Below, one piece after another: positions 1,389 through 21,867 of a stretch of DNA of 37,099 nt. Origin of the DNA: Myxococcales bacterium. Its GTDB lineage: Bacteria; Myxococcota_A; Polyangia; JAAYKL01. Position numbers and translations under genes: made by a program. Each line of letters begins with the position of its first letter. Position 1 is the stretch's first letter. Under the pieces are notes generated by a model. The model searched no databases. It had not been told where the DNA came from and was given only the letters and a program-made list of their open reading frames with translations. The stretch lies in the NCBI GenBank assembly GCA_012522445.1, contig JAAYKL010000063.1:1-37099 (forward strand), given 5' to 3'.

Positions 1389-1400
1389 ATATTACTGTGG

Positions 1401-1406
1401 GGAGGG
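1401..1406 (+). promoter_or_regulatory. Shine-Dalgarno site (GGAGGG) that sets the start of the methyltransferase/glycerophosphotransferase gene
   Basis: GGAGGG lies 8 nt before a GTG at 1415, an ideal spacing. The upstream GTG at 1397 has no comparable site and would place this site inside the coding region. The start is therefore taken as 1415. Confidence 0.6.
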
Positions 1407-1414
1407 ATAGGCAA

Positions 1415-4948: not shown

Positions 4949-5881
4949 TTAAATCGATACACCGGATGGCAGCGGTAGAGAAGCGACGATGCCTGCGCTG
5001 AGCAGTAGGGCGTAGAGGAGCATCAGCATCGCCGACTGGGCCAGGGTGCGGTTGAGGTTGCGTCGGTCGGTGCAGCGATAGAGCTGGCGGATGATGGAGA
5101 CGCCCAGGGGCAAGGCCAGCAGCGGCAGGAGCAGCGCGTAAGCGCGTTGGTAGAGGCCGAGCGCGCAGGGCAGGGCAAAGGTCGCGCCTTGGGCGAGGAC
5201 AAAGAGGCGCAGGGCCCACCGGCGTCCCAGGCGTACGGGCAGTGTCTTTTTGCCCTTGCGGCGATCGATGTCTTCGTCGCGCAGGTTGTTCACCGCCAGC
5301 ACGTTGGCGCTCAGCAGTCCGGGGCCGATGGAGAGCAGGGCGCCAGTGGCGGTGAGGGTTTCTCCGGTGAGCCACGCGGTGCCCAGCACAGCGCCCGGGC
5401 CAAAGAAGAGAAAGGCGAAGACCTCACCGAGGCCGATGTAGCCGAGCGGAAAGGGACCGGCGGTGTAGGCGAGGGCCGAGAGGATCGCCAGGGAGCCGAG
5501 CGCGAGGATGGGCCATCCGCCTTGGTAGACCAGCCAGGTGCCCAGCAGGGCGGCGAAGGCGAGCAAGAGGGCTGTGGCGCGCTTTAGGTCGGCGGAGCGC
5601 AGCAGTCCCATGGCCGCGGCGCGCGGGGGGCCTAACCGAGACTCGTCGTCGATGCCCCGGTCGTAGTCGAGGGCGTCGTTGATGAGGTTGGAGGCGATTT
5701 GCATGGCGGTGGCAGCCAACGCGGCGAGGAGGAAGGCCCACGGGCTGAATGGTTGGGGAGCCGCCCAGCCCAGCGCAGCGCCCACGAGAACCGGCGCCAG
5801 TCCCACGGGCAGCGTGCGGGGACGCGCGGCCAAGAGCCAGGCCTGCCGCGATCCCGGGCGGATATGGCGGATGTCGTTCAT
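4949..5881 (-). CDS. menA: 1,4-dihydroxy-2-naphthoate polyprenyltransferase (MenA)
   Basis: This 310-aa integral membrane UbiA-family prenyltransferase attaches the polyprenyl tail to 1,4-dihydroxy-2-naphthoate, giving demethylmenaquinone. The two Asp-rich Mg/diphosphate-binding motifs are present. The first is [18 protein letters not shown], near residues 65-82, followed by [12 protein letters not shown]. The second is [22 protein letters not shown], near 197-218. The protein is otherwise a series of hydrophobic helices. Length and motif order fit MenA (about 300 aa). The start codon overlaps the menB stop (TCAT at 5878-5881 on the plus strand), so the two are probably translationally coupled. 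It is the last gene of the minus-strand operon. Confidence 0.95.
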
Positions 5882-6705
5882 GGGTGGCGTTTGAATTTGG
5901 AGAAGTCCGGCGCGCGCTTTTCGACGAAGGCGTTGCGGCCTTCTTGGGCTTCTTGGGACATGTAAAACAGCAGCGTGGCGTTGCCGGCGAGTTCTTGCAA
6001 GCCGGTTTGTCCGTCACAGTCGGCGTTGAGGGCGGCCTTGAGGCAGCGCAGGGCCATGGGGCTGTTGGCGAGCATCTCTTGGCACCAGGCGATGGTCTCG
6101 CTCTCCAATTGCGCCAAGGGCACCACCGCGTTGACGAGGCCCATCTGCAGCGCGGCCTGGGCATCGTATTGCCGACACAGAAACCAGATCTCCCGGGCTT
6201 TCTTTTGCCCCACGATGCGCGCCATGTACGCGGCGCCAAAGCCCCCGTCAAAGCTCCCCACGCGCGGACCGGTTTGCCCGAAGACCGCGTTGTCGGCAGC
6301 GATGGTGAGGTCGCAGACCAGGTGCAGCACGTGTCCGCCGCCGATGGCGTATCCCGCCACCATGGCCACCACGGGCTTGGGCAGGGTGCGGATGGCGCGC
6401 TGCAACTCCAGCACATTGAGGCTCTCGACGCCGTGCTCGTCGGCATAACCGGCATCGCGGCGCACTTTTTGATCGCCGCCCGAGCAAAAGGCCTTGTCGC
6501 CCTCACCGGTGAGGATGACCACGCCCACGTCGGGGTCGCGTTTGATCCGAACAAAGGCGTCCAGCATTTCGGCGACGGTTTGCGGTCGAAAGGCGTTGCG
6601 CACCTGGGGGCGGTTGATGGTGATTTTGGCGATGCCCGCAAAAATTTCGTAGCGGATGTCTTCGTAGGTGTGGGCGCAGGTCCATACGGGGGGCGTCGTC
6701 GTCAT
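5878..6705 (-). CDS. menB: 1,4-dihydroxy-2-naphthoyl-CoA synthase (MenB)
   Basis: This 275-aa crotonase-fold enzyme closes the second ring of the naphthoate by cyclising o-succinylbenzoyl-CoA. It is extremely similar to the enterobacterial enzyme. It shares [64 protein letters not shown] and [20 protein letters not shown], and it ends DFSKFKRHP. The start at 6705 (MTTTPPVW) follows an AAGGAG site just inside the 8-nt gap after menD. The frame stays open far upstream, but that extension is the shadow of menD and is not part of menB. It lies between menD and menA in one transcript. Confidence 0.97.
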
Positions 6706-6713
6706 GGGGCTCC

Positions 6714-8474
6714 TTAGGGGGTCAGTGCCGCTGCCTGTGCGTACAAGGACGTGCGCCAGGGGCGGCTGTCGGGGTGGGTTACGATGGCTTCGATGATGGC
6801 GGCGCCGGGTTGTTCGAGGCGTTGTGCCAGGGCTTGGGCCAGCTCGGTTTCGCTTTGTGCGCAGAGGTAGGGCAGGGAAAACGCCCGGGCCAGGTGCGCC
6901 CAAGCAGGCCCTTGCGGGATGACAAAGGCGTCCCGTTGCCAAGTTTGGGGCACGGCGCTTTGGGCCAGGGGCAGTTGCTCGAAGATGCGCCCGCCGTGGT
7001 TTTGAATGAGCGCGATGATCAGGGGAGGGCCGCTTTGGGGCAGGGCCGCCAGACCGCCGACGTCGTGGAGGGCGCTGCGGTCGCCGATGAGGGCGATGGT
7101 GGGGCGTGCCAAGGCGCTGTGGGCACCGGCCGCGCTGGAGATGAGCCCGTCGATGCCGCTGGCCCCGCGTTGGTGCAGCACGCGGTGCGGCGCGTTTGTA
7201 AAGTGCGCAAAGAGGTCGAGATCGCGTAGGGCCAGGCTGTTGCCGATGCACAAGGCGATGTCGGGGCGCAGGGATTGGGACACCGCGCGGCAGATGTGTC
7301 CCTCGTGAAAGTGGGGGCTGCGCAGTGCGGCTTCGGTGCTGCGGCGCCAGAGTGCCACGGCCTTGTGCATGTGGTCGCGCCAGGAGGGAGTGGTGCGGCG
7401 GCGGGGGGCGCAGCGTTTGGCGAGTTGGTCCACGGCGTGCGCCAGGTCGCCCAGCAGCAGGGCGTGGGCGGTGTCGTGGGGATCGCGCAGTTGGTGCGGG
7501 CTGAGCACAATGCGGCAGATGTTTGGGTGGGCGGCGACGAAGCGCTGGTAAGCCCCGGAGGTGAGGGAACCGCCCAGCTCGAGGATGCACGTGGGGGCGA
7601 AGGCGTCGTTGGCCAGCGCGACGCGGCTGACAAAGTCGAGGCCCCCGGTGTAGATGTCGGCGTCGTCGTGGGGGGTGATCAGGCCAGAAGTCACCTCGGT
7701 GAACACGGGATAATCCAAGGTTGTCGCCAGGGAACGCAGGGTGTCGATGGACGGCGAGTCCGCTGCGAAGTCCCAGTTGGGGCCGCAGACGATCCATCCT
7801 TGGGGTTGGGCGTCTAAGGCGTGGGCCGCGTACTGGAGGTCGTCGGAGAGCGGCGTTTGGCGGGGCAGGGCGACGCGGGGTTGCCACGGGGCGTCTGCGA
7901 TGGCGTCTGCAGCCGCCGCCAGTGTGGGGGCATCGGGTTCGAGGGGCTGGGCAAAGGGCAGGTTGATGTGCACGGGGCCCGGCAGGGGATGGCGGCTCGT
8001 CACTGTGGCCCGCACTGCCAGCGCGCTGGCCTGGCGCAGGGCATGGGGGGTGTCGGCGATGTGGGGCGCGGCAAAGAAAGCGCGCGCGGTGTCGCCGAAG
8101 AGTTTGGTTTGATCGATGGTTTGCATGGTGCCCTTGTTTTGATCTTCGATGGGGCGGTCGGCGGTGAGCAGGAGCAAGGGAATGCCCGCCATGCTGGCTT
8201 CGATCGCTGCGGGGTGAAAGTGCGCGGCAGCAGAGCCTGAGGTGGCGATAACCGCTGCGGGTTCTCCGGTGGCGCGGGCCGCTCCTAGGGCGAAGAAGGC
8301 GGCGGTGCGCTCGTCGACGTGCATGTGCAGTGCGATTTGCGGATGGGAGAGGGCCGCCAGCACCAGGGGGGTGGAGCGAGAGCCCGGTGCCGCGACGAAG
8401 TGCCGAACCCCCGCGTGCACCAGCGCGTGGATGAAGGTCAGTGCCCATTGATAATTGATGTTCCCCTGGGTCAT
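6714..8474 (-). CDS. menD: SEPHCHC synthase, thiamine-diphosphate dependent (MenD)
   Basis: This 586-aa cytoplasmic enzyme joins isochorismate and 2-oxoglutarate (with loss of CO2) to give SEPHCHC, using thiamine diphosphate and Mg. It has the MenD signature [12 protein letters not shown], the catalytic glutamate Glu55 in [13 protein letters not shown], a [12 protein letters not shown] loop, TADRP, and a C-terminal cofactor half. That half contains the [13 protein letters not shown] and [11 protein letters not shown] segments. The start at 8474 ([10 protein letters not shown]) overlaps the menF stop by four bases (ATGA). The frame remains open upstream to 8735, but that stretch lies antiphase inside menF and has no MenD homology. 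It is slightly longer than the E. coli enzyme. Confidence 0.95.
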
Positions 8475-9928
8475 GTCGCTTCGATTGTCTGGCGCATCAC
8501 CGATTGCTTCAAGCGGATTTCGGCCACCTCGGCTTCGGGTTCGGAGCCCGCGATGATGCCGCCACCGGCGTAAAGCACAGCGGTTTTTCCGTGGAGGAGC
8601 GCCGAGCGGATGCCCACCCATGCCTCGCCGTCGCCTTGCGGGTTGCACCAACCGACGGGCCCCGCGTACCAACCGCGCTCGTGGGGCTCGTGGCTCTTGA
8701 GCCAGTCGGCGGCGGCTTGGGACGGAATGCCGCACACGGCAGAGGTCGGGTGCAGTGTGGCCACGGCGTCCAGGATGTGGACGGGGCGGTCCGCGAAGGT
8801 GGCGGTGATGGGCGCGTGGAGATGGTGGATGCTGGTCAGGGTGCGCACGCCGGTGTCTTCGGACTGCACGGCGCCCCCCAGTTGCGCCACGGTCTGCGCA
8901 ACGGTGCGCTTGACGTGAGCAAACTCGCGCCGGTTTTTTTCGCAGGCGCGCAGGGCGGCGATCTCCGCTGCGTCATGGCGGCCGTCGGGGGTGCGGGGCC
9001 ACGTTCCCGCCAGGACATCGGTGTAGAGCTGTGTGCCCTTCCCGGTGACGGTGGCCAGGCGCTCGGGCGTGGCGCCGACAAAGCACGCCGGACTCCGCTC
9101 CAGGGCGAAGATGTGGCTCTGGGGGTGGTGTGCCAACAGGTGGGCCACGATGCGGGAGAGGCGCGGTGGCGCGTGTAACGGCAGGGGCGTCGCTTGGGAG
9201 ATCACGACCTTTTCGAGCTGCGCGTTGTGAATTTGTGCCAGCGCGTCGGCGATGAGCTGGCGCAGGGCCGCGTCTTGTGCCGCGTCGTCTGTTGTTTGGG
9301 AGAGCCCGTCGTTTTGCGGCAGGGGGACAGCGGGAGAGGCGGCCTCGAACGGTGCGCGGTGCGCGGTGGTCCCGGCTTCAAGCCAGCGCGAGAGTTGCTG
9401 CGCTTCGCTAAGAAAGGCGTCGGGAGTGCGGCGCGATGTGGGCGAGAGCAGGGCGATCAGCGTGGCGGTATCGCGGTGTCGCAGGTACGACCAGCGGGGC
9501 AAGGTGAATTCGGCATTGGCAAAGGGGGCCCAGGCGTCGTCGCGGGAAGGGTGGGCGAAGAAAGCCGCTCCTCCCATGGCGCAAAGAGATGTTTGGGCGG
9601 CAGCGCTGGTGGCGTTTTGGCGCGCTACTTGGGGCCAGAAATCGCGGAGCTGTCGTTGCAGCAAGTCAAAGCGATTCGGCCCTTCGGCTGTAAAGCGCTT
9701 CGCTGCACCAAAGCCGATGACGAGGGCTGCGTGTCCCTGGTCGCCGCGTCCATTTCCCGATTGGAACAGGGTGCGCTCGCCATTGAGGGGCGCCTCGCAC
9801 ATCTGGGGCGCCGCTATGCAAGGAGCGGGCAAGGCCAGGGCGAGCCATTGGTTTGCGGGGTGTGTGGTGCTGGTGTCGAGCAGCGCCGTGAAGCGTTGGG
9901 CGAAAGGAGTGGGGTCACTTGGCGGCAT
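8471..9928 (-). CDS. menF: Isochorismate synthase (MenF)
   Basis: This 485-aa chorismate-binding enzyme converts chorismate to isochorismate, the first step of menaquinone synthesis. The C-terminal chorismate-binding domain shows [56 protein letters not shown], the [11 protein letters not shown] motif (usually HPTPAVGG), GWYAGPVGW and [15 protein letters not shown] with WxEI-type ELxxK residues. The N-terminal half is poorly conserved, as is usual. The start at 9928 ([13 protein letters not shown]) has a GAGG site upstream and overlaps the menG end by 14 nt. A longer frame to 10021 exists but would run deep into menG. A salicylate- or siderophore-linked isochorismate synthase is excluded by the men context. 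Confidence 0.93.
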
Positions 9929-10676
9929 GGATGGCCTCGGCGACGAACAAGTGGCACGTGCCCCACATAAATGCGCGTTGGGCATGCACGCGAAAGCCAG
10001 CCTGGTGTAGCTCTTGCGCAAAATCCGTCTCAGGGGGGAAGGCGTTCATCGATTGCGTCAGGTATTGGTAGGGCGCGCGCCGGGCCCATAGGCGTCCCAC
10101 CAGCGGGATGATGCGGCGGACATAGCGGCAGGCAAAAGAGGACAAAAAGTGTCCGTGGGGCATGCACAGCTCCAGGATGACGAGCTGCCCACCTTCTTTT
10201 AGTGTGCGGTGGATTTCGGACAATCCCCGGGCGCGATTGGGAAAGTTTCGCACGCCAAAGGACACGGTGACCGCGTCTAGGGTTTGGGCCGCAACGGGCA
10301 GCGCTTCGGCCGCTCCACGCAGGAGTTCGATGCGGGGGGCCGGGTGCTTGGCGGCGCGCACTTTGGTTTGGGCGATGCGCAACATGCCGTCCGAAGGGTC
10401 GATGCCCGCAATGTGGCAATGGGGGTGTCGGCGCGCGATTTCCAGGGCAAAAGATGCGGTGCCGGTGGCGATGTCGAGGAGGCGCGCTTCGGGGGGAAGG
10501 GTGAGGGCGTTTACCGCAGCCTTGCGCCAGCGTCTGTCAAAGCCCAGCGAAATGAGGCGGTTGAGGCGATCGTAGTGCTTGGCGATGGTGTCGAACATCG
10601 CGCCGCTGCCGCCCCGACTGCCCATCGGTCTGGCGATGGTGTTGAACATTGCTCCGCTGCCGCCTCGATTTGCCAT
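9915..10676 (-). CDS. menG: Demethylmenaquinone methyltransferase (MenG/UbiE family)
   Basis: This 253-aa class I methyltransferase adds the ring methyl group with SAM in the last step of menaquinone synthesis. The conserved UbiE start MFDTIAKHYDRLNRLISLGFDRRWR lies at about residues 27-51. It is followed by LLDIATGTASFALEIA (SAM motif I), GIDPSDGML, VSFGVRNFPN and LKEGGQLVILE. The N-terminus is odd: RGGSGAMF(N/D)TIA occurs twice in tandem, 17 residues apart, so about 26 residues precede the normal family start. Three in-frame ATGs (10676, the one before GSRGG, and the one before FDTIA) could serve. No Shine-Dalgarno clearly decides among them, and only a weak AGAG precedes 10676. It sits 30 nt after the Smr gene and overlaps menF. 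Confidence 0.92.
   Translation of the reverse strand: MANRGGSGAMFNTIARPMGSRGGSGAMFDTIAKHYDRLNRLISLGFDRRWRKAAVNALTLPPEARLLDIATGTASFALEIARRHPHCHIAGIDPSDGMLRIAQTKVRAAKHPAPRIELLRGAAEALPVAAQTLDAVTVSFGVRNFPNRARGLSEIHRTLKEGGQLVILELCMPHGHFLSSFACRYVRRIIPLVGRLWARRAPYQYLTQSMNAFPPETDFAQELHQAGFRVHAQRAFMWGTCHLFVAEAIHAAK
10581..10676 (-). repeat. Direct tandem duplication (51-bp period) at the 5' end of menG
   Basis: GGCGATGGTG at 10581 recurs as GGCGATGGT at 10632 and the following bases remain aligned over about 45 nt. The copies encode RGGSGAMFNTIAR and RGGSGAMFDTIAK. They differ mostly at third codon positions, so the duplication is either old or maintained. It puts a second copy of the methyltransferase start region upstream of the true domain. 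Confidence 0.75.
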
Positions 10677-10706: not shown

Positions 10707-11066
10707 TCAATGGTTGTTGGGCGGCACGAGTGTTACCTGGGTGGCTCCCCAACCACCGGAGGCGCTGTCCGCCAACCGAAAGGCGGCGATGCCGTCTAGT
10801 TTTTGCAAAATGCTGTGCACCATGCGGCGCTGCACGCCCTTTCCTTTGCCGTGGATGATGCGCACCTCGAAGATGCCTTTTTCGCGACAGGCCTCGATGT
10901 AGTCGGGTACCAAGGAGCGGATGTCCTTGGGAGAGAAGGTGTGCAAGTCGAGGACGCCGTCGATGGGTATGGCAACGGTTTCGTCTTCCCAGGGGGTGTT
11001 GTCGTCGTCGTCGTTATCGTCATCGTTGTCGCCAGGGGGCAAAAAAGGGGAGGGCTCACCGCACAT
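10707..11066 (-). CDS. Smr-domain protein with acidic N-terminus
   Basis: This 119-aa protein is mostly an Smr (small MutS-related) domain. It has LDLHTFSPKDIRSLVPDYIE, then EVRIIHGKGKGVQRRMVHSIL with the HGKG motif, and an end FRLADSASGGWGATQVTLV that matches the usual Smr finish. Smr domains bind or nick branched DNA or RNA. Free-standing ones are common in Proteobacteria and mostly uncharacterised. Before the domain is a run of Asp and Asn residues (about 12-24) encoded by a GTC/GTT/ATC-type triplet tract. The start is 5 nt after the GH9 stop with no evident Shine-Dalgarno, so translation may be coupled. The role in a menaquinone operon is not obvious. Confidence 0.8.
   Translation of the reverse strand: MCGEPSPFLPPGDNDDDNDDDDNTPWEDETVAIPIDGVLDLHTFSPKDIRSLVPDYIEACREKGIFEVRIIHGKGKGVQRRMVHSILQKLDGIAAFRLADSASGGWGATQVTLVPPNNH
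10998..11033 (-). repeat. Triplet repeat tract encoding poly-Asp/Asn
   Basis: The tract is a run of GTC, GTT and ATC triplets on the plus strand. It encodes GDNDDDNDDDDN at the N-terminus of the Smr protein. Length variation in multiples of three would be tolerated. Confidence 0.7.
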
Positions 11067-11071
11067 GCGGA

Positions 11072-12799
11072 TCAGTGGTTTTCGAGGCTGACCGCGAGGA
11101 TGTACCAGCCGCTATGGGGGATCCACTGTTCGCTCCAGCGCCAGCGGTGGTTGCCCGTCCTCGCTTCGGGGGGCTCGCTGGGGTTGAAGTCGATGTCGTG
11201 GGGATCGAGGAAGCCCGCGGTGGCGCCGTTGCACACGCCGCCGGGAGCGCTGGGATAGCCCTCTTCGTAGAACGCGTTGTTGTGGCCGCGTCCGTGGAGC
11301 ATGCAGATGTCGAAGGGGTTCATGCCCAGCATCCAGTCGATGCAGAGGCCGGCGTATTCGTTGAGGCGATCGCGCATCTCGGGTTTGACGTGGCGAGCGG
11401 CGGCGCGGGCAGCCGAAGCCAGGGAACCGAGGCGGGCGTTTTCACCTTGCCACCAGTATCCGCTCTCATTGTGTTGCGCGAAGAAGAAGCTGGTGCGGCG
11501 GTTGCCGTCGGCATCGGTGATGTACTGGCGCGGATAATCGAAGGGGTTGGGGACCTCTTCGGTGATGCGCAGTTCAAAGGCGCAGAGGCGTTCGACAGCG
11601 GCGAGGATTTCGGCTTTGGCGTCGTCCTTGGCCACATCCATGAACCCGAGCAGGGAGAGGATGGGCAGGCCAGCGTCCGAGGCGTGGAAGAAGGTGCGTT
11701 TGCCAGCGTCGTCGGCGCGCAGCCAGTCGGTGCAGGTGTCGTCGCTGGAAATGCGGGCCATCAGGCTTTTGGCCCGGGCGGCGGCGGCGTCGTAAAAGCG
11801 CTGTTCCTTGGTGGTGATGAACAGCTCGGTGGCAGCCAACAGGGCGCAGTAGTCGTCGATGATGTTTTCTTTGCCGTCGTTGCAATAGGAGGGGCCGTGT
11901 TCTTCGACGTGATCGAAGCCCTTGATGGCCGTTTGCAAGTAGGTCTCGCGGGTGAAATCGCGGTCGCGAGGCGCGCGTGCGGCGATGGCCAGCGCGGCGA
12001 TGGACATGCCCGCGCCTTGGCGGTGGGAGCACTGCCAGTTTTCGTAGCGGTGTCCCGCCTGGGTTTTGTATTCGCAGATCATGCGCTTGCTGGTGTCGGC
12101 GGTCCACTGGTCGAAGACCGTCATGTAGAAGGCGCCGCAGGGGTCTTGCATGCGCACCAGAAAGTCAGCGCCGTACAGGGCTTCGTCGTAGAGCTTTTTG
12201 ATGAGCCGCTCGGTGCCAAAGTCTTCGTTGGCGGCGTGTTTCTTTTCGAGCTCGCGCGCGGTGTGAAACATGCTCCACACGCAGAGTTGCGTTTGCTGTG
12301 GGTTCATGAAGTTGGCGTAGGAGAGGTGCGAGAGGTACTTGCTGACGTCGCCGCTGGCATCGTACCAGCCGCCGTGTACATCGACGGTGCGGTTGTCTTT
12401 GTCGTTATAAATGGGGAGGTTTTTGTCGGTCGCGTCGAACTCGTCGGCGCAGCGCTGTGCGCGGAAATAGTAGAGGATGTCGGCGATGGTTTCGCGGATG
12501 AGGTGGGTGCGGATTTCAAAGGGGTGCGAGCGCTCGGGGCACGTGGCGGCATCGCTGGGCTTTGCCACGACGACATAGCGGCCGGGTGCAGTGAGGGATG
12601 AAAAATCCACGGTCCAAAAGTGCCAATTCTTCCAGCGGTCGACGGTGCCATTGGATTGCGGAGTGCCTTGAAAGACCTCTTTGCCGGTGTCGTGGCAGAC
12701 GATGGCAAAGGCTTGCGGGGTTTCGCCTTCGGTGCATTTCAAAATGGCGCGTTTGGGGGCGTGCGGAGCGTAACCAACGTGGTTGATCAGAATTTGCAT
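11072..12799 (-). CDS. Glycoside hydrolase family 9 protein with N-terminal Ig-like (CelD-N) domain, apparently cytoplasmic
   Basis: The protein has 575 aa. Residues 1-95 match the Ig-like CelD N-terminal domain (ILINHVGYAPHAPKRAIL at the start, GRYVVVA near 73-79). The rest is an (alpha/alpha)6 GH9 catalytic domain. The paired aspartates lie in GGWYDASGDVSKYL (Asp147, Asp151; canonical GGWHDAGDYGKY). The C-terminal part has LGMNPFDICMLHGRGHNN, a shifted version of the VNPxGxSYVTGxG...HHR block, and Glu557 in WSEQWIPHSGW as the likely general acid. Family members are endoglucanases, exo-glucosidases and glucosaminidases acting on beta-linked glucans. There is no signal peptide, so it probably acts on imported or internal oligosaccharides. 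A GGAG site at 12807-12810 supports the start. It is the first gene of the run leading into the men genes. Confidence 0.82.
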   Translation of the reverse strand: MQILINHVGYAPHAPKRAILKCTEGETPQAFAIVCHDTGKEVFQGTPQSNGTVDRWKNWHFWTVDFSSLTAPGRYVVVAKPSDAATCPERSHPFEIRTHLIRETIADILYYFRAQRCADEFDATDKNLPIYNDKDNRTVDVHGGWYDASGDVSKYLSHLSYANFMNPQQTQLCVWSMFHTARELEKKHAANEDFGTERLIKKLYDEALYGADFLVRMQDPCGAFYMTVFDQWTADTSKRMICEYKTQAGHRYENWQCSHRQGAGMSIAALAIAARAPRDRDFTRETYLQTAIKGFDHVEEHGPSYCNDGKENIIDDYCALLAATELFITTKEQRFYDAAAARAKSLMARISSDDTCTDWLRADDAGKRTFFHASDAGLPILSLLGFMDVAKDDAKAEILAAVERLCAFELRITEEVPNPFDYPRQYITDADGNRRTSFFFAQHNESGYWWQGENARLGSLASAARAAARHVKPEMRDRLNEYAGLCIDWMLGMNPFDICMLHGRGHNNAFYEEGYPSAPGGVCNGATAGFLDPHDIDFNPSEPPEARTGNHRWRWSEQWIPHSGWYILAVSLENH

Positions 12800-13078
12800 T
12801 TCGGAACTCCAGGATTTTGTTGTTTAATTATTTCTCGTCTATTTCATGGGCCGTGAATAGCCCGAACAATGCGCGCACAACTTAAACATAAAAAATCGCG
12901 ATTCGGCAAGTGAACTCTTTGGATTTGTCGGTGAAATGGCGCTTTATTTCGATTCGGATTGCGGGGAATACACCGGAAAAGCGCGTGGCAAAAAATCAGA
13001 TTCCGGGTTATGTGCTTGTCGTTTGCCGCGCTTCCACGTAGCGTCAAATGGTTCCGGGGCGGAAGGAATTATTCATAT
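12800..13078. other. Divergent intergenic region between the GH9/men operon and the redox fusion gene
   Basis: This 279-nt stretch must hold the promoters for both directions. It is AT-richer than its surroundings. It contains the 10-bp palindrome AATCGCGATT at 12894-12903 and a short GGGC...GCCC repeat at 12848-12863. On the minus strand, TTGTTC and TGAAAT at 17-nt spacing are a weak promoter candidate for GH9. I see no gene. The frame of the fusion gene is open back to 12959 but lacks homology there. Confidence 0.35.
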
Positions 13079-15826
13079 ATGTCATCACAAAAGTACGATG
13101 CATTGGTCATCGGTGGCGGACTGGGCGGACTGACGGCTGCTGCGGCGCTGTCCCATGCGGGCCTCCGGGTGCGCCTCTTCGAAAAGCACAGCATCCCCGG
13201 TGGTTATGCGACGAGCTTCTCGCGGGGGCGCTTCGATTTTGAGGTTTCCCTACACGCGCTGTCGGGCATTGGCGAGCCACAAAATCGCGGCCCCATATAC
13301 CACATTCTCGATGAGTTGGGCGTGGCCAAGCGCCTTGATTTTGTCTTCCTCAACGACGTGTTTCACAGCATCACCGGCGATGCGGAGTTCGTTATGCCGC
13401 GTGAGGAAAACGCCATCGTCGATGCGCTGTCATCGCGCTTCCCCCACGAGCGCCGAGGCTTGGTACGCGTATTTCGACTGTTGATGAATGTCGGCAACTC
13501 CATTGAGCACATGCGCGCGCGAAACAGCGGTATGTCCAGCGTGGAGGTCATCGCCCGCTACCCCGTGTTGGGATATGCGGCCGGCATGACCCTGGGACGC
13601 CTGCTCAACCGCGAAGTGCGCGACCCGGAGGCGAGGCTGGCCATCTCCCAACTCTGGGGATATTTCGGCTGCCCGCCCAGCACCATGTCCCTTTTGCTGT
13701 ACGGCGCGGCGATGCACAGCTATGTGCGTTATCGCCCGGTGATGCCCCGCGGAAAATCCCAAGCGATCTCCGATGCCCTGGTCGACGTCATTCGCGAAAA
13801 CGGCGGCGAGGTGTCGCTGTCCACTGCGGTGGTTCGCATCCGCTGCCAAGAGGGACGCGTCACCGGTGTCGAGACGGCCCAAGGCGAGGTTTGCGATGCG
13901 CCCATTGTCGTTTCCAACGCCGCCCCCATCACCACGCTCAAGCAACTGCTGCCACCGGATTGCGTGCCCGCAACGCTCATCGATCAACTCAGCCGCATCG
14001 CGCCCAGCGTTAGCTCGTTTAATGTGTATCTCGGGCTCAATACGCCATCGAAAAACGTGGGCATTCGCAGCCATGAGATTTATCTCAACCGCGATTTCGA
14101 CACCGAATCCCATTACGCGGCCGGCACGCGCATCGGACCGCTGACCAGTATCTCCGTTACGGCATACGACGTGCTCGACCCCGATGCTTCGCCGAGCGGA
14201 ACGGGGCTCGTCACGTTGACGGTGCCGGTGGAGGGGGCGCCGTGGGAGCGCTTGGATGCGGCCGATTACACCGAAACCCGCGACCGGGTGGCGCAGTCGT
14301 TGATCGCCGATCTCGACGCGCGCTTCCCGGGGTTTTCGTCGCACATCGAAATGCAGGTGCTGGCCACGCCCTTGACCAATGCGCGCTATACCGCCAATCC
14401 CTCGGGCGCCATGTACGGCTACGCACAAACAGCGGCCCAAAGCCCGGCCTTTCGTTTCTCGCAACAAGGCCACATCGAAGGGCTCTGGTATGCGGGGGCC
14501 TGGACGAGGCCTGGCGGCGGCTACCAATCGGTCATCAACTCAGGGCGCTTCACTGCAGACATGATTCTGCGCACGTGGCAGGGGACGCGCACGACAGCCT
14601 GGCTGCAGCGCACCGATCCCTATCGCCGCATTCCCTTAACTCCGATACCCGTCGGGGCACGCCTGCGGGCATTGGGCGGTTTCTTTAAAGACGGCAAGGT
14701 CATCCGCGATGCCATGCAGACCAATCGCCGCCCCGTGGATTTGTCGGCGCCGGTGCGCGTGTCGCCCGAACAAACCGATGCAGCGGTGGAGCGCGTCCAT
14801 GCGTCTTCTTTCCGCGCGGTGGTCAGCGAAGTAACCCGCGAAGCACCGGATGCGGTGACGCTGCACCTGACCCGCGAAGACGCGCCGTTCCCGCCCTTTG
14901 TGCCGGGGCAATACTTTTCGCTCTCTTTGCAGGTGGGAAACCAGCGACACCAACGACCGTACAGCGTTTCTTCGGCCGCTACCGATACGGGGCGACTTTC
15001 ATTTACCGTAAAGAAGAAAGCCGGTGGCTTTTTGTCGCACGCCATCGTCGACGACCTCAAGGTGGGAGACAGCGTTTTTCTCTCGGGCCCTTGGGGCGGT
15101 TTTCAGTACGCGCCGCTCTCGGATCCGCCGCACCTGGTGGCCATCGCGGCAGGCAGCGGCATCACACCCTTTGTCAGCATGTTGCGCTCCTTTGGCAGCG
15201 GCTACCCACGGCCCGAAAAAATGACCTTGCTCTATGGCTCGCGCGACGCGTCGCACATTTTGTTCCGCGATGTCTTGGCGCAGGCCCAGGCGTCCTACGA
15301 TTGGTTCCGCGTGCGGCACGTGCTCTCTCGCCCCGCCGATGCCACGGCCGAATTTCGCGGGCGCATCCGTCCCGAAATACTGCCGGCGTTGCTCAGCGAC
15401 ATCGACGAACAAAACGCCGTGTACCTCATCTGCGGTCCCGAGGCGATGATGTCGAGCCTCTCCGAATACCTGCCATCTGCGGGCATCTCGCGCACCCGCA
15501 TCCGCACCGAGATTTTCGGTCCGCAATCGCCCCACGCTTTGTCGCCGCATTGGCCGCAAGACGTGCCCCAGGATACGCGTTTTCGCATTCACAATGCGCG
15601 TGTGGGCCGCGATGCCCAAGTCGCAGCGATCGAAACGATTTTGGGCTCTCTGGAGCGCGTCGACATGGCGCCGGCCTCGCGCTGTCGCGCCAGCAATTGC
15701 AACTCCTGTCGGATGCACCTCGTGCAGGGCAAAGTGTTCGACGCCACCCGCCACGAGGTCGTTGCAGGCCCCGCTCACATCCGCACTTGCATGTGCTTTC
15801 CCCTCTCCGACATCAAGCTCATTTGA
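13079..15826 (+). CDS. Three-domain redox fusion: CrtI/retinol-saturase-like flavoprotein, ferredoxin reductase, 2Fe-2S ferredoxin
   Basis: The protein has 915 aa. Residues 1 to about 535 match the phytoene-desaturase/all-trans-retinol-saturase family. The dinucleotide motif is VIGGGLGGLTAAAALSHAG, followed by EKHSIPGGYATSF and, near the end, GLWYAGAWTRPGGGYQSVINS. Residues about 577-820 form a ferredoxin-NADP reductase module. It has RPYSVSS (flavin), a following GGFLS, AAGSGITPFVSML (NAD(P)H) and YLICGPEAMM. Residues about 830-915 form a plant-type [2Fe-2S] ferredoxin with Cys869, Cys874, Cys877 and Cys904 or Cys906 (CX4CX2C...C). Together this is a complete path from NAD(P)H through flavin and the cluster to a polyene-type flavoenzyme, which suggests reduction (saturation) of an isoprenoid. 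The substrate is unknown. The start at 13079 follows GGAAGGA at 13061-13067. The longer frame from 12959 is not used. Confidence 0.85.
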   Translation: MSSQKYDALVIGGGLGGLTAAAALSHAGLRVRLFEKHSIPGGYATSFSRGRFDFEVSLHALSGIGEPQNRGPIYHILDELGVAKRLDFVFLNDVFHSITGDAEFVMPREENAIVDALSSRFPHERRGLVRVFRLLMNVGNSIEHMRARNSGMSSVEVIARYPVLGYAAGMTLGRLLNREVRDPEARLAISQLWGYFGCPPSTMSLLLYGAAMHSYVRYRPVMPRGKSQAISDALVDVIRENGGEVSLSTAVVRIRCQEGRVTGVETAQGEVCDAPIVVSNAAPITTLKQLLPPDCVPATLIDQLSRIAPSVSSFNVYLGLNTPSKNVGIRSHEIYLNRDFDTESHYAAGTRIGPLTSISVTAYDVLDPDASPSGTGLVTLTVPVEGAPWERLDAADYTETRDRVAQSLIADLDARFPGFSSHIEMQVLATPLTNARYTANPSGAMYGYAQTAAQSPAFRFSQQGHIEGLWYAGAWTRPGGGYQSVINSGRFTADMILRTWQGTRTTAWLQRTDPYRRIPLTPIPVGARLRALGGFFKDGKVIRDAMQTNRRPVDLSAPVRVSPEQTDAAVERVHASSFRAVVSEVTREAPDAVTLHLTREDAPFPPFVPGQYFSLSLQVGNQRHQRPYSVSSAATDTGRLSFTVKKKAGGFLSHAIVDDLKVGDSVFLSGPWGGFQYAPLSDPPHLVAIAAGSGITPFVSMLRSFGSGYPRPEKMTLLYGSRDASHILFRDVLAQAQASYDWFRVRHVLSRPADATAEFRGRIRPEILPALLSDIDEQNAVYLICGPEAMMSSLSEYLPSAGISRTRIRTEIFGPQSPHALSPHWPQDVPQDTRFRIHNARVGRDAQVAAIETILGSLERVDMAPASRCRASNCNSCRMHLVQGKVFDATRHEVVAGPAHIRTCMCFPLSDIKLI

Positions 15827-15908: not shown

Positions 15909-16508
15909 ATGATGCCCGAGAAAACAATGCTGCTGGATGTCCTCTTTGCCGCGGTCGGCTACTTCATCGGCGCGATCAATTTTTCGCTGATCGCCGCGCG
16001 CCTGGCCCGCAAGCCCGATCCGCGCCACTGCGGTAGCGGCAACGCCGGGGCCACCAATTTGCTGCGCACCGCGGGATGGCGTGTAGCGCTACCGGTGCTG
16101 CTGCTCGACGTGTTGCGCGGTTTCGCCTTTGTGTGGGCGGCGTCGCTTCTGCCGCTTTCGCCTTACGGGCTGTTGGGGGCGCTGGCCGTGTTGCTGGGAA
16201 ACCTCTTTCCGATCTATCACGGGTTTCGCGGCGGCAAGGGAGTGGCCACATCGGCGGGCATCGCGCTGGGGCTTTCGCCGTTGGCTTTTGGCGCCGCGTT
16301 GCTCTTGGCACTACTGGTGTTGGCGCTGTCTCGCCGGGTGTCGCTCTTGTCGCTGTCCCTGCTTTTCTTCTTCGCTGCGATACTGGGGGTGCGCGATGGT
16401 TGCGGTCTGCCACTCGGTCTGGCGACTGCGATGTGCGCAGTGGTCTTCGTCACGCACCGCGCCAATTTGAAACGCCTCTTTTCCGGCGACGAGCCGCGGT
16501 TGTTTTGA
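15909..16508 (+). CDS. plsY: Acyl-phosphate:glycerol-3-phosphate acyltransferase (PlsY)
   Basis: This 199-aa multi-spanning inner-membrane enzyme acylates glycerol-3-phosphate at position 1, using acyl-phosphate made by PlsX, at the start of phospholipid synthesis. The three family motifs are clear. They are GSGNAGATNLLR (canonical SGNPGATN), HGFRGGKGVAT, and THRANLKRLFSGDEPRLF near the C-terminus (canonical RHRxNIxRLxxGxE). Five hydrophobic segments are visible. It follows the redox fusion by 82 nt in the same direction and may or may not share a transcript. A second ATG three bases downstream, after the first Met, is also possible. Confidence 0.95.
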   Translation: MMPEKTMLLDVLFAAVGYFIGAINFSLIAARLARKPDPRHCGSGNAGATNLLRTAGWRVALPVLLLDVLRGFAFVWAASLLPLSPYGLLGALAVLLGNLFPIYHGFRGGKGVATSAGIALGLSPLAFGAALLLALLVLALSRRVSLLSLSLLFFFAAILGVRDGCGLPLGLATAMCAVVFVTHRANLKRLFSGDEPRLF

Positions 16509-16594: not shown

Positions 16595-17461
16595 TCAGTC
16601 AAAAACGCCCCAATCAAACTCGTCCCAGTTAATACCGTCCTCCCACGTATCATAGTTCCAATCGTCATCGCCGTTGTCATCGCCGTTGTCATCGCCCCAG
16701 ATGTCGCCCCAGATGTCGTCCCAGATGTCGTCCCAACCGTCGTCCCAACCGTCGTCCCAACCGTCGTTCCAGTCGTCGTTCCAGTCGTCGTTCCAGTCGT
16801 CGCCGTTATTGTCGCCCCAGTCGTCGTCCCAATCATCGAGGATAAGGTCGGCAAACATCTCGGGACACTTGTTGGCAAAGGCATCGCATGTGGCCGGGAT
16901 TTCAAAGGGCTCAGGTTCGGCGTTCATCATGGTGGAATTTCCCATCATTTCTACCAACCACGCCGATGTTATTTGGCTGCACTTGGGCACTTCGGCGGCC
17001 TGCTGTTTGACGTATTTGACTTCGAGGTTCAGTATGGCTTTGTAGCAGCGGGTTACCTCATCCACCGTGGCCGAACATCCCTGGAGGAAATCCCAGTCCA
17101 TCAGCTCGCATGAATCCGTGTAATCGTCGCTCGTGTCTTGTTTGTTTGTTTGCTGGCATGCATCTTGTGTGCTGCTGCAAATGGCGGCCAGCTCGCTATC
17201 GGGGGTGTTGGGGTTGGCGAAAAAGGCATATGCGGCGCGCCCGACGCCCTCCAAGCGGCACTGCTCGGAGAGTACCGACTGGCTGGCTTGGAATTCGGAT
17301 TTGGCGACGTATTCGCACACGGACACGGCTTCATCGGGGGTGACCTCTTCGACGGGCTTGTTTTTGGCGGGTGGCCCACTATCGCCGTCGTTGCTGCATG
17401 ATGTGATGCCAACGGCAAAGAGAAGCGACAGCGCCAGTAGCAGTGATGTCCTTTTTTTCAT
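16595..17461 (-). CDS. Putative outer-membrane lipoprotein with Asp/Trp-rich repeat tail
   Basis: The protein has 288 aa. MKKRTSLLLALSLLFAVG is a lipoprotein signal peptide ending in the lipobox ITSC (Cys22), and the Ser at +2 suits outer-membrane sorting. The middle (about 45-200) has about ten further cysteines spaced in a way that suggests several disulfides, plus many Gln/Thr/Ser, and no family I recognise. The last 80 or so residues are almost entirely Asp, Trp, Gly and Asn in four-residue steps (DDWN, DGWD, DIWD, DIWG, DDNG). They end WDEFDWGVFD. Such a strongly acidic aromatic repeat could bind cations or other polymers, but this is a guess. A perfect AGGAGG at 17467-17472 and a candidate promoter upstream support it as a real, independently transcribed gene. 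It converges with plsY. Confidence 0.78.
   Translation of the reverse strand: MKKRTSLLLALSLLFAVGITSCSNDGDSGPPAKNKPVEEVTPDEAVSVCEYVAKSEFQASQSVLSEQCRLEGVGRAAYAFFANPNTPDSELAAICSSTQDACQQTNKQDTSDDYTDSCELMDWDFLQGCSATVDEVTRCYKAILNLEVKYVKQQAAEVPKCSQITSAWLVEMMGNSTMMNAEPEPFEIPATCDAFANKCPEMFADLILDDWDDDWGDNNGDDWNDDWNDDWNDGWDDGWDDGWDDIWDDIWGDIWGDDNGDDNGDDDWNYDTWEDGINWDEFDWGVFD
16657..16836 (-). repeat. 12-bp minisatellite encoding the Asp/Trp repeat
   Basis: About fifteen consecutive 12-bp units lie in frame. The core runs 16693-16800 and consists of three sets of near-identical units: CGCCCCAGATGT or CGTCCCAGATGT (three), CGTCCCAACCGT (three) and CGTTCCAGTCGT (three). Flanking units are more diverged (CGCCGTTGTCAT twice). 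Grouping in threes points to stepwise local expansion. There are no spacers, so this is not a CRISPR array. Confidence 0.9.
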
Positions 17462-17604: not shown

Positions 17605-20600
17605 TTAGGCCCAGCGCACCAGGCCGGTCTCTTGCCGCGAAACCAAGGAGGGATGGGTGGGGGCAACGCGCAAGGTGTAGCGGAAGCTGCCGCTGCTCGC
17701 GAGCTTGTGGGAAAGCTGGTAGGTGAAGTATGCCGGATTGTCGGACTCCACCTGTTTGAGGGGGATGGTGAGCGGCTCTGCGGTGAAGTTGTCGTTTTCT
17801 TCGGGGCCGATGAGCAGCTCTGCCACCAACTCAGGGGCTTTCATTTTGCCGGGATTGACGAGCATCTCGATTTCGAGGGGCTGGTTCGCCTGCAAAATAT
17901 TGTTGTCGATGCCCTTGATGCGGACGCTTTCGATTTGCACCGTGGAGAAACGCGCTTCGATACGCAGCTTCCAATCGGTGAGTGCCGAAATACCCGCAAA
18001 GTCGTCCTTGGAGAGTTCGTGGTTGCGCTTGGCCGTGGGCAAGTAGAGGCGGCGGAAGTATTCGTCCACCATGCGCATGGTGGAGAATTCGGGTGCGCAG
18101 GTTTTGAATGCGTTTTTCATTTTTTGCACCCAGTTGTGCGGCGTGCCTTGCTTGTCGCGATCGAAGAAGAGCGGGAGGATGTCGTTGTTGAACAGGCGGT
18201 AGATCGCGTTGGCGTCCATTTCGTCCTGGTGCGCGCGGTTGATGGGCTTGGCTGCAGACTGAATGGCAAAGCCCACGTCGTCTCCGCCTTGTTCGCGATA
18301 GGCTTCATCCCACCAGCCGTCGAGAATGGAGCAGTTCAATCCGCCGTTGGGCACGACCTTCATGCCGCTGGTGCCGCTGGCCTCGTGGGGGCGAACCGGG
18401 TTGTTGAGCCACAGATCGACGCCCTGGGTCATCAGGCGTCCCAGCCACATGTTGTAGTTTTCGAGGTAGAAAATTTTGCCCTTGAACTCGTCGGTGCGCG
18501 ATTCCTGAATGATGCGGCGGATCAAATCTTTGCCCAGGGAGTCGGCGGGATGCGCCTTGCCCGCAAAGAAGATTTGCATCGGTTTGTCGGGATTGTTGAG
18601 CAGCTCAATCAGGACGTCGCGGTTGTTGAAGAGGAGGTTGGCGCGCTTGTAAGTGGCAAAGCGGCGCGCAAAACCCACCGTGAGGGCTTCGGGGTTAATG
18701 AGGTCGAGGGATGTGTTGATGAACGAGGGGTTTTCGCCCCGCCGCAGGTAATCGTCGTAGAGTTTTTCTTTGGCGATCTGCAAGAAGCGGTTCTTTTGTT
18801 TTTGGTGCTCGTACCAGAGTTGTTCGGAGGGCACTTTGTCGATGCCGAGCCAAGTGTGCGGGTCGTCTTGGTTTTGGTCCCAGTTGACATCGAGGTATTG
18901 GTCGAGGAGGCGTTTGATGTCTTGGCCAATCCACGATGTGACGTGAATGCCGTTGGTGACCGAGGTGATGGGCACCTCTTCGACGGCCAGGCCTTTCCAG
19001 ACGTCGCGCCACATGTCTTGGCACACCTTGCCGTGGAGCTTGGAGACGCCGTTGGCGATGCTCGAGAGCTTCAGGCCCAGCACCGTCATGGAAAAGGGGC
19101 TGTTGTCGTCACCGCTGCGCGACAGGCCCATCTCCATGAGTTGCTCGAAGGTGATCGAGAGGCGGTTGGGCAGCGCGCCGAAGTAGTGTTTCATCAATTT
19201 AACGTCGAAGGTTTCGTTGCCTGCGGGCACCGGGGTGTGGGTGGTGAACACAGACGAGGCCTTGACGGCTTCGCGGGACTTTTGAAAGTTCAGGCCGCGC
19301 TTCATCAGGCGCTCGATGCGCTCGAATTGCATGAAGCCGCAGTGTCCCTCGTTGAGGTGGTACACCGCGGGTTGCAATTGGAGGTAATCTTCGAGCAGGC
19401 GCACACCGCCCATGCCCAACACGATCTCTTGCTCGATGCGCATTTGTTTTCCGCCGCCGTAGAGTTGGGCAGAGATGTATTGGTCGGCGGGCATGTTCTC
19501 TTCGAGGAAGGTGTCGAGGAGGTAGAGCTTGATGCGCCCGACGTTGACTTGCCATACCTTGGCGGTCACCGTGCGGCCGGGCATCTCGACATCGATTTTC
19601 ACGTCCATGTTGTTGGCGTCGCGCAGCGGAGAGATGGGGATGCGCGAGGGATCGACCTCGGGGTAATGCTCGATTTGGTTGCCACCGATGTCGATGCGTT
19701 GCTCGAAGTAGCCCTGCTTGTACAGGAAACCCACGGCCACCAACGGGATGTTGAGGTCCGAGGCCGACTTGAGGTGGTCGCCGGACAAGACACCCAAGCC
19801 ACCCGAGTAAATGGGCAGGCATTCGTGGATGCAGAACTCCATCGAGAAATACGCCACGGGGGTTTTGGGCGAGAGCTCTTTGGCGTCTTTGTAAACCCGC
19901 CCCTCTTCGGCCATGTATTTTTTGAACGCGCCAATGACCTTTTCGTACTCTTTCATGAAGAGTGGATCTTTGGTTTTGGCGTTCAACTGCTCGTAGTTCA
20001 CTTGCTCCAAAAACAAGACGGGGTTGTCTTCGATGGAGTCCCACAGGGCGGGGTCAATCTCGCGAAAGAGATTGAGGCCGTCGGGGTGCCACGCCCACCA
20101 CATGTTGCGCGCCAGAATCGCGAGATCGGAGAGCTTTTTGGGCAGCGTGGGTGCGACGATGATGCGGCTGTAGTGCGGTCCGGGGCCCTGAGCGCCGCCC
20201 TGAAAGGAAACGAAGAGCTCGTTGGAGAAGGCCGAGGTGTCCAGGGAGTTGAGGCGTCGATCGACCTGTTGCAGGGCGCGGTCGTAGGCCTTGCGATAGC
20301 TTTGGTAAAAGCCCGCCCAGGTGGCCATGGTGGCGATGCGGCGCGCATGTACGCGCAGGTTCGCGAGCTGTTTCTCGTCGACTTCGTAGTAGAAATGCAA
20401 TTGGGAGAGCAGGGCTTCAATGCCCTCGTCATAGGTGCGTCCCACGCGCGGGATCACGGCGATGGAGCGGCCCGTATCGACCTTCAGATCGTCGGCCCAG
20501 CGCCCAAAACCTGCCAGATCGGTGGTGACCGTGGGGACGCCCAGGGAGATGCACTCGAGGGGGGTGTATCCAAAGGGCTCGTAGTAAGAGGGGAAAACGC

Positions 20601-21867
20601 CGAGGTCAAAGCCCGAAAGCACGGATTCGTAGGGCATGTTGAAGATGCCGTCGTTCACGCCAACATAGACCGGCGTAAAGATGATTTGCACTTTGTTTTC
20701 GGGGGAGTTGGTGAGCCCCAAGCGCTGACAAGCCTGCAAAATCGGGTCGTTGATTTCGTCGGTGAGCTTGTGGGTGGTGATGCCGTTGTTGCCCTTTGTG
20801 GCGCCCTTGCCTTCGAAGATGCTCTTCACATCGTCGCGGAGACCGTTGTGTTGCGTGGCCACCATGAACCAAACCAACACCGGCGCCGGTGAATCGAGGG
20901 TGCGCAGGTGGATGTCGAGGCGGGCCAGGCTGTCGAGGAAGAGGTCGAAGCCCTTGTTGTGAAATTCGTATCGCCCAGACATGGTCCAGAGCCGGGTGTT
21001 TTGCGGCAGGGAGGTGCCCAAGAAACTGCTCCCCATGTTGAGGATGCGGTTGCGCACGGTGGCGGCTTGGGCGCGAACGCTCTCGTAGGTGCCGAAGCTG
21101 TCGGCGTTGACGCCGTTGTAGAGCACGTAGTGCGGGCGTTTGTTCAGCACGCGCAGGGCTTCGTCGGCGGTCACTTCGCTCACCGTGGTGAAGACGTCGG
21201 CCTCGTGGGCGCAGATGCTCTCCAGGGAGTGCTTGGCATAAACGCCGTAATTGCGGGCTTCGCTTTCGACATCAATGTCGATGATGTCGTCGTAGATATC
21301 GATGCCCGCTGCGGCCATGGCGCGGCCGAGTACCGTGGCGTGGGTGGTGAACACCGTGCCGATTTCCGGGCTCGTCTTTTTGACGTGCAGCAAACCAGCG
21401 CTGGACATCCACTCGTGGAATTGCGCGATGACGCTGGTCTCCTCGGAGTCGAGGGTGTCGTTGATGATTTCGATGACTTCGCCCGCCGCAGTGCCAAAGA
21501 GCACAGGCTCAATATACGACCAGGTGCTGCCCATGGAGTCGACGCCAAAGAGGTGCCACAAATCGTAGAGGATTTTGTTGGAGTCGTATCGATCGCGGAA
21601 GTTGACCAGGATCACTTTGGGGCGGCCTTCGGTTTCCCAACGCCCGTAACGGCATGAGATGTTGCGCTCTTCGAGGGCCTTGCGGATGGGGGCGAAGTCC
21701 GGTTCGTCGGTTTCGACAAAGCCGGTGTTGTTGTCGAGAGCGGGTCCAATCAGGCAATAGCGGTCGCCGTATTTTTTGACGGATTCGCGCGCCTTGGAAC
21801 GAAGGACCGTGTGGATGCCCCCCACCAGATTGCAGACTTCCCAACTGACTTCGAATAGTTGCTTCAT
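17605..21867 (-). CDS. Glycogen synthase (GT3)-alpha-glucan phosphorylase (GT35) fusion
   Basis: The protein has 1420 aa. Residues 1 to about 560 resemble the eukaryotic GYS-type glycogen synthase. Shared marks are FEVSWEVCNLVGGIHTVL, HEWMSSAGLL, TTHATVLGR, TVSEVTADEA and the EX7E element in YYEPFGYTPLECISLG (about 425-440). Residues about 575-1300 are an alpha-glucan phosphorylase of the bacterial type that begins LAILARNMWWAWHPDGLNLF. They include YFSMEFCIHECLPIYSGGLGVLSGDH, NEGHCGF, TTHTPVPAGNE, NGIHVTSW, RRFATYKRANL and the PLP-binding Lys1170 in SGTSGMK. The last 110 residues are a beta-rich tail. One polypeptide thus carries a glucan-building and a glucan-degrading activity. An AAGGAG site precedes the ATG at 21867. 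It is the last gene of an operon with GH57 and GT4/5 genes (39-nt gap). Confidence 0.9.
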   Translation of the reverse strand: MKQLFEVSWEVCNLVGGIHTVLRSKARESVKKYGDRYCLIGPALDNNTGFVETDEPDFAPIRKALEERNISCRYGRWETEGRPKVILVNFRDRYDSNKILYDLWHLFGVDSMGSTWSYIEPVLFGTAAGEVIEIINDTLDSEETSVIAQFHEWMSSAGLLHVKKTSPEIGTVFTTHATVLGRAMAAAGIDIYDDIIDIDVESEARNYGVYAKHSLESICAHEADVFTTVSEVTADEALRVLNKRPHYVLYNGVNADSFGTYESVRAQAATVRNRILNMGSSFLGTSLPQNTRLWTMSGRYEFHNKGFDLFLDSLARLDIHLRTLDSPAPVLVWFMVATQHNGLRDDVKSIFEGKGATKGNNGITTHKLTDEINDPILQACQRLGLTNSPENKVQIIFTPVYVGVNDGIFNMPYESVLSGFDLGVFPSYYEPFGYTPLECISLGVPTVTTDLAGFGRWADDLKVDTGRSIAVIPRVGRTYDEGIEALLSQLHFYYEVDEKQLANLRVHARRIATMATWAGFYQSYRKAYDRALQQVDRRLNSLDTSAFSNELFVSFQGGAQGPGPHYSRIIVAPTLPKKLSDLAILARNMWWAWHPDGLNLFREIDPALWDSIEDNPVLFLEQVNYEQLNAKTKDPLFMKEYEKVIGAFKKYMAEEGRVYKDAKELSPKTPVAYFSMEFCIHECLPIYSGGLGVLSGDHLKSASDLNIPLVAVGFLYKQGYFEQRIDIGGNQIEHYPEVDPSRIPISPLRDANNMDVKIDVEMPGRTVTAKVWQVNVGRIKLYLLDTFLEENMPADQYISAQLYGGGKQMRIEQEIVLGMGGVRLLEDYLQLQPAVYHLNEGHCGFMQFERIERLMKRGLNFQKSREAVKASSVFTTHTPVPAGNETFDVKLMKHYFGALPNRLSITFEQLMEMGLSRSGDDNSPFSMTVLGLKLSSIANGVSKLHGKVCQDMWRDVWKGLAVEEVPITSVTNGIHVTSWIGQDIKRLLDQYLDVNWDQNQDDPHTWLGIDKVPSEQLWYEHQKQKNRFLQIAKEKLYDDYLRRGENPSFINTSLDLINPEALTVGFARRFATYKRANLLFNNRDVLIELLNNPDKPMQIFFAGKAHPADSLGKDLIRRIIQESRTDEFKGKIFYLENYNMWLGRLMTQGVDLWLNNPVRPHEASGTSGMKVVPNGGLNCSILDGWWDEAYREQGGDDVGFAIQSAAKPINRAHQDEMDANAIYRLFNNDILPLFFDRDKQGTPHNWVQKMKNAFKTCAPEFSTMRMVDEYFRRLYLPTAKRNHELSKDDFAGISALTDWKLRIEARFSTVQIESVRIKGIDNNILQANQPLEIEMLVNPGKMKAPELVAELLIGPEENDNFTAEPLTIPLKQVESDNPAYFTYQLSHKLASSGSFRYTLRVAPTHPSLVSRQETGLVRWA

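Follow-up and report, generated by a model that had tools for sequence, protein, structure and literature searches.

A single-chain CrtI-fold flavoprotein with its own reductase and [2Fe-2S] module, a candidate self-sufficient lipid-polyene reductase

Here we describe a gene in which a CrtI-fold flavoprotein domain is followed, in one continuous frame, by a linker, a flavin/NAD(P)H reductase and a C-terminal [2Fe-2S] domain, an order assigned with Pfam and NCBIfam models. It lies in a 37,099-nucleotide stretch of DNA from a Myxococcales bacterium (hereafter the window). Its cofactor motifs are intact, the arrangement recurs in fused form and as neighbouring gene pairs, and the two halves co-vary. 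In our assessment there is an even chance that the CrtI/CrtISO-fold domain and its phthalate-dioxygenase-reductase-type module form a self-sufficient lipid-polyene reductase, a chain that would likely reduce double bonds of a fatty or isoprenoid molecule without a helper protein. The well-studied CrtI-type desaturase gives its electrons to O2 or quinones, and the source from which reductive members of the superfamily obtain theirs is a basic question, which becomes testable with a natural single-chain form, split homologues of it and a paralogue coupled to rubredoxin. Such an enzyme could serve as a self-contained catalyst of C=C reduction, as self-sufficient P450s do for oxidation. Among the titles and abstract openings listed by a literature search, none gave an account of such a fusion or of its electron donor, and what was available of the lipid biohydrogenation literature yielded nothing useful.

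Architecture of the fused gene

Features of the gene, in window coordinates, are as follows.

13079..15826, + strand: whole fused gene; ATG start, 915 codons plus stop, single open frame
13091..14572, + strand: CrtI/CrtISO-fold FAD domain, residues 5-498
13112..13129, + strand: GxGxGG dinucleotide-binding motif, residues 12-17; G12, G14, G16 and G17 invariant in 28 of 28 fused rows
13253..13255, + strand: H59, invariant in 50 of 50 rows; aligns with T55 of the Pantoea CRTI flavin pocket
14573..14812, + strand: linker, residues 499-578; helical in the model, weakly conserved
14828..15109, + strand: reductase flavin domain (FAD_binding_6), residues 584-677; Pfam E 4e-13; RxYS at 626-629
15143..15457, + strand: NAD(P)-binding domain (NAD_binding_1), residues 689-793; Pfam E 4e-19; GxGxxP at 692-697
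15605..15802, + strand: plant-type [2Fe-2S] domain (Fer2), residues 843-908; Pfam E 1.6e-3
15683..15709, + strand: C869, C874 and C877, the C-x4-C-x2-C cluster motif (fused-row alignment)
15788..15790, + strand: C904, the fourth cluster cysteine (fused-row alignment)

The reading frame is open from position 12959, and the Amino_oxidase model covers residues 15-497 of the product (Pfam, E 7e-25). As the initial annotation had described, the CrtI-like flavoprotein is continuous with the reductase and the CX4CX2C domain, with all domains present and in order, and frame, Pfam and structural model agree that a catalytic domain and a complete reductase lie within one chain. The predicted structure has a pLDDT of 90.4 and a pTM of 0.91; in it the reductase and Fer2 (residues 575-915) match the fold of phthalate dioxygenase reductase (2pia), and the self-sufficient P450s 6kbh and 6laa are among the matches. 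The Fer2 score in the window protein is 18.8 bits, below the Pfam cut-off of 21 bits.

Invariance across the 28 fused rows, five of which (P0046-P0050) have lost Fer2 and one of which (P0004) ends at a contig edge, extends from the glycine motif to E35, R626, G692, G694 and P697. All four cluster cysteines are intact in each of the 22 rows retaining Fer2, a number in which P0001 and P0002, one protein at 99% identity, are counted separately. The loss of cofactor-binding residues on which the initial annotation had staked its reading was thus not seen. Its second weak point was a frame or assembly error merging two genes, an explanation encouraged by relatives in which the halves are separate adjacent genes. 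It is contradicted by the single clean frame, by P0002, a separate 915-aa record of the window protein at 99% identity, and by at least 26 other fusions at 31-40% identity; together with the intact cysteines, these leave an artefact next to no probability.

Recurrence and co-inheritance of the two halves

The architecture search that had been suggested returned 27 fusions of 847-923 aa besides the window protein, P0002 among them, within the best 120 of 365 proteins found by a profile search; the identity range given above holds for the remaining 26 among the matches listed. P0019 (a desaturase-reductase) and P0020 were left out as unrelated fusions. The fusion has already been met by automatic naming, since the source calls both P0041 and P0050 phytoene dehydrogenase-like protein/ferredoxin-NADP reductase.

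In a class scan of 317 genomes, both halves occur together in at least 11, fused in six (G000, the window's genome, and G002, G004, G008, G011 and G013) and as adjacent separate genes in five (G030, G034, G064, G069 and G227). A phylum sample of 377 genomes, some of them shared with the class scan, added a fusion in G394, adjacent pairs in G319, G475 and G518, and halves located on two contigs in G407, bringing adjacent pairs to at least eight genomes over both scans. Pair counts are lower bounds because two candidates were scored per genome, and database-protein and genome counts are not independent because some entries are the same genes (P0004/G008, P0032/G002, P0048/G013 and P0049/G004). 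The split frames of G064 are in register, separated by one TAG and a 3-bp gap, and those of G227 overlap by 4 bp; the split genes in loci L113 and L114 were placed by tblastn. No fusion was seen in a named-genome scan, since none of the 80 loci kept of 94 gave a match before residue 497, and none of 1513 matching records in a plasmid scan covers >80% of the query. A large gene lies downstream of Fer2-less fusions and is conserved in three genomes (L108 4875-7934, L110 4663-7386 and L109 10174-12711); two members scanned gave no Pfam match.

A tree of the CrtI domain was built from 68 rows, 34 of them stand-alone (a subset of the stand-alone rows), with SH-aLRT support. The fused-with-Fer2 label, which the contig-truncated P0004 also carried, needs at least five changes on this tree, and starred branches force four of them; fusion or fission therefore occurred more than once. 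Fused rows lacking Fer2 (P0046-P0050) form a single clade, and the branch leading to the window row is long (1.09). In the reductase tree, also with SH-aLRT support, fused and split forms separate from 21 PaaE-like reductases. Distances within the two halves correlate with r 0.85 over 32 pairs, a value reached in 0 of 2000 permutations (best permutation 0.33), and the correlation is 0.69 when restricted to pairs >40% apart. Because the two halves co-vary, the pairing of CrtI-like domain and reductase appears, on this evidence, to have been co-inherited and to predate fusion.

The catalytic domain

Residues 5-502 share their fold and N-terminal GxGxxG FAD motif with CrtI-type phytoene and carotenoid desaturases (4dgk, 4rep), but the window protein differs from these in its sub-cut-off score, in the lack of conservation at R148 and D149, in the invariant H59 and in having its own reductase and Fer2. 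The CrtI model (TIGR02734) gives it 155.1 bits against a cut-off of 238.1. The CrtISO model (TIGR02730) matches over its full length (residues 6-494), yet at 145.6 bits against 586.9, and the PaaE model (TIGR02160) spans residues 581-911 but scores 147 bits against 420.8. By these cut-offs, the protein is placed outside the curated CrtI, CrtISO and PaaE families. The HMM scores show no preference for a reductase, and no sequence feature separating saturase from isomerase was found. Among the matches listed, source names of close unfused relatives invoke prolycopene isomerase more often than retinol reductase, and P0092 and P0138 are linked to the retinol saturase type by source name only.

R148, D149 and R152 of Pantoea CRTI are candidate catalytic residues, as yet unproven (PMC3382138, partial text). 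In a low-identity alignment they fall on V155, E156 and A159, and the window protein carries none of the three. The columns for R148 and D149 are unconserved, with E at 156 in 8 of 50 rows, and the R152 column holds A or T; in 38 of 50 rows the next position (160) is R or K. Retinol saturase is related to CrtI-like flavoproteins. Its reaction is a saturation (PMC6920856, partial text). For CRTI, FAD alone served as cofactor among FAD, FMN, NAD+ and NADP+, and desaturation electrons go to O2 or quinones; the non-redox reaction of CRTISO depends on reduced FAD, and prolycopene is also isomerised by CRTI when its FAD is reduced (PMC3382138, in the portion available). CrtISO and retinol saturase likewise use or imply reduced-flavin chemistry.

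The reductase module and electron supply

The second half shows the phthalate-dioxygenase-reductase-type order of flavin domain, NAD(P) domain and C-terminal plant-type Fer2 with four cysteines. To our knowledge, no reductase domain has been described for CrtISO or retinol saturase. Phthalate dioxygenase reductase (2pia) and PaaE-type reductases have the same domain order; the window module differs in being tethered to a CrtI-like domain, and its kind forms the separate group in the reductase tree. Self-sufficient CYP116B P450s (6kbh, 6laa) likewise join a catalytic domain to a reductase/Fer2 tail in one chain, but their catalytic half is an unrelated haem domain, whereas that of the window protein is a flavoprotein.

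A plasmid of Ligilactobacillus acidipiscis (NZ_CP113927) carries a related pair, in which 2 bp separate a CrtI-like gene from the FNR-like gene behind it; their identities to the window protein are 27% and 25%. The pair groups with the fused and split family in both trees, on long branches, but consists of separate genes without Fer2, and the usual NAD motif was not seen on reading the sequence. It sits (L085 6920-9288) within a run of flavin-related genes. Because Fer2 is missing both from this reductase and from the five fused rows P0046-P0050, the [2Fe-2S] cluster is not always needed.

Other electron-supply modules adjoin CrtI-like enzymes. In the window's own genome, a 671-aa CrtI-like paralogue (contig G000:C61, L188 3577-5592) lies directly behind a gene for a Pyr_redox_2-rubredoxin reductase, with overlapping frames (both genes, L188 2252-5592), and this arrangement was found in 7 of 7 loci, namely its own and those of six relatives that we chose. 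In G030, a gene just upstream of the split pair, on the same strand, encodes a Rieske, Pyr_redox_2 and Reductase_C protein (L113 10986-12830). This variety of modules beside CrtI-like enzymes is the strongest indirect argument for reductive use. Against such use count the dispensability of the cluster in the Fer2-less clade and the isomerase names that sources give more often to unfused relatives. A chain fed by NAD(P)H and working reductively, as the initial annotation had proposed, is upheld as the best inference, with the rubredoxin-coupled paralogue and the unconserved CRTI residues in its favour.

Substrate clues

Phytoene/squalene synthase (PF00494) was not found in the window's genome, which is 88% complete, and is absent from six of the seven fused carriers (G000, G002, G004, G008, G011 and G394), being present in G013. 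A C40 carotenoid substrate, one of those initially suggested, is therefore unlikely for the fused form. The argument is confined to that form, because seven of eight adjacent-pair carriers (all but G518) have PF00494, and for split forms carotenoid or squalene-type substrates are accordingly possible. Among three other genomes, G022 has the synthase and G407 and G532 do not. Its absence is not tied to the fused gene, since three of eight non-carriers from the family of the window's genome have it.

In five further fused carriers, all from the family of the window's genome, a gene of ~200 aa lies directly upstream of the fusion. At E 4.5e-57 or better, it is matched in 5 of the family's 6 fused carriers and in none of 8 non-carriers, three of which gave weak matches (1e-8 to 1e-11); the gene is absent from the window's genome and from the fused carrier G394. 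One member has a Pfam link to polyketide cyclase/lipid transport at 23.5 bits against a cut-off of 27.4, and another lacks a Pfam match. Its product is probably a lipid-binding protein, START-like and secreted on our reading of the sequence.

The split pair of G034 has a DUF2505 gene upstream, and that of G319 has an MMPL gene downstream in convergent orientation. A third CrtI-like protein of the window's genome (L189 3-5124, G000:C70; 837 aa) is fused to thioesterase-like (4HBT) domains and lies 2 bp behind a polyketide-synthase KR-DH gene, and a relative in Pseudalkalibacillus sits in a fatty-acid/polyketide-type cluster. Together with the upstream partner gene, these neighbours and relatives suggest that the substrate is a lipid and may be an acyl polyene.

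Proposed mechanism and alternatives

The fused enzyme would be fed by reductant. A C=C saturase is its most likely identity and a reduced-flavin isomerase a possible one; the saturase takes first place because the chain has a stoichiometric source of electrons built into it. In such a cycle, NAD(P)H would reduce the reductase flavin, and the [2Fe-2S] cluster would relay electrons one by one to the FAD in the CrtI-like domain. Once reduced, this FAD would donate a hydride to a C=C bond in a hydrophobic polyene, acyl or isoprenoid and probably other than a C40 carotenoid, with the invariant H59 as a possible proton donor. In the five other carriers, the probable lipid-binding protein encoded just upstream may present the lipid. 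We further propose, tentatively and at somewhat less than an even chance, a new family of self-sufficient lipid-polyene saturases. In it, a CrtI-fold desaturase would have become an NAD(P)H-driven reductase by being permanently paired, and repeatedly fused, with a phthalate-dioxygenase-reductase-type module, a START-like carrier would supply the lipid, and the substrates would be acyl or isoprenoid polyenes in bacteria making no carotenoids.

An unlikely reading is a CrtISO-like cis-trans isomerase in which the fused reductase just keeps FAD reduced in air, with no net redox change. CRTISO, and CRTI acting on prolycopene, do work with reduced FAD (PMC3382138, partial text), the CrtISO score (145.6 bits) is close to the general CrtI score (155.1 bits), and several close relatives among the matches listed bear the source name prolycopene isomerase. 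The protein nevertheless falls far under the CrtISO cut-off, six of seven fused carriers lack the phytoene synthase for a prolycopene substrate, and a hard-wired reductase would better fit a stoichiometric need for electrons.

We consider it improbable that the chain is a self-sufficient, CrtO-like flavin oxygenase using reductase electrons and O2 to oxygenate a lipid. CrtO ketolase belongs to the same superfamily, and the same reductase tail works with phthalate dioxygenase and CYP116B P450s (fold matches; PMC7260179, partial text), but the window protein scores 61.5 bits with the CrtO model, whose cut-off is 1000, and the match is broken into two pieces, the best covering residues 4-46. Running the chain backwards, as a desaturase whose Fer2 and reductase would hand lipid electrons on to NAD(P)+, is very improbable. 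Desaturases (4rep, 4dgk) are the best-known enzymes with the CrtI fold; against this, known reductases of such type run outward from NAD(P)H, and the candidate desaturation residues of CRTI are unconserved here. Desaturation of a C-C bond cannot readily reduce NAD+ on thermodynamic grounds. Where acceptors of a CRTI-type desaturase are given, they are O2 or quinones (PMC3382138, partial text). The saturase reading stays the preferred one.

Genomic context of the window gene

The genes flanking the fusion in the window are the following.

4949-10676, - strand: menA, menB, MenD-like TPP enzyme, isochorismate synthase and ubiE/menG
10707-11066, - strand: Smr-domain gene
11072..12799, - strand: GH9 glycosidase, divergent from the fusion
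15909..16508, + strand: plsY, 82 bp downstream of the fused gene, same strand

The gene had been located correctly between the men operon and plsY, and the Smr-domain and GH9 genes also intervene on the men side. The use of this setting as a hint to the substrate did not hold, since the men, GH9 and plsY genes had no match to genes in the ten relatives' loci compared (E 1e-10). Some of these loci are short (L089, 3,170 bases; L115, 5,076), so absence at those two carries little weight.

Further genes of the window may be recorded here. A 1420-aa protein (17605-21867, - strand) is, as read by eye, a putative glycogen synthase fused to a glucan phosphorylase. The product of 16595-17461 (- strand), which has no Pfam match, combines a signal-like start with a long Asp/Trp/Gly-rich repeat tail. 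At 1397-3970 (+ strand), a methyltransferase domain is fused to a teichoic-acid-type glycerophosphotransferase.
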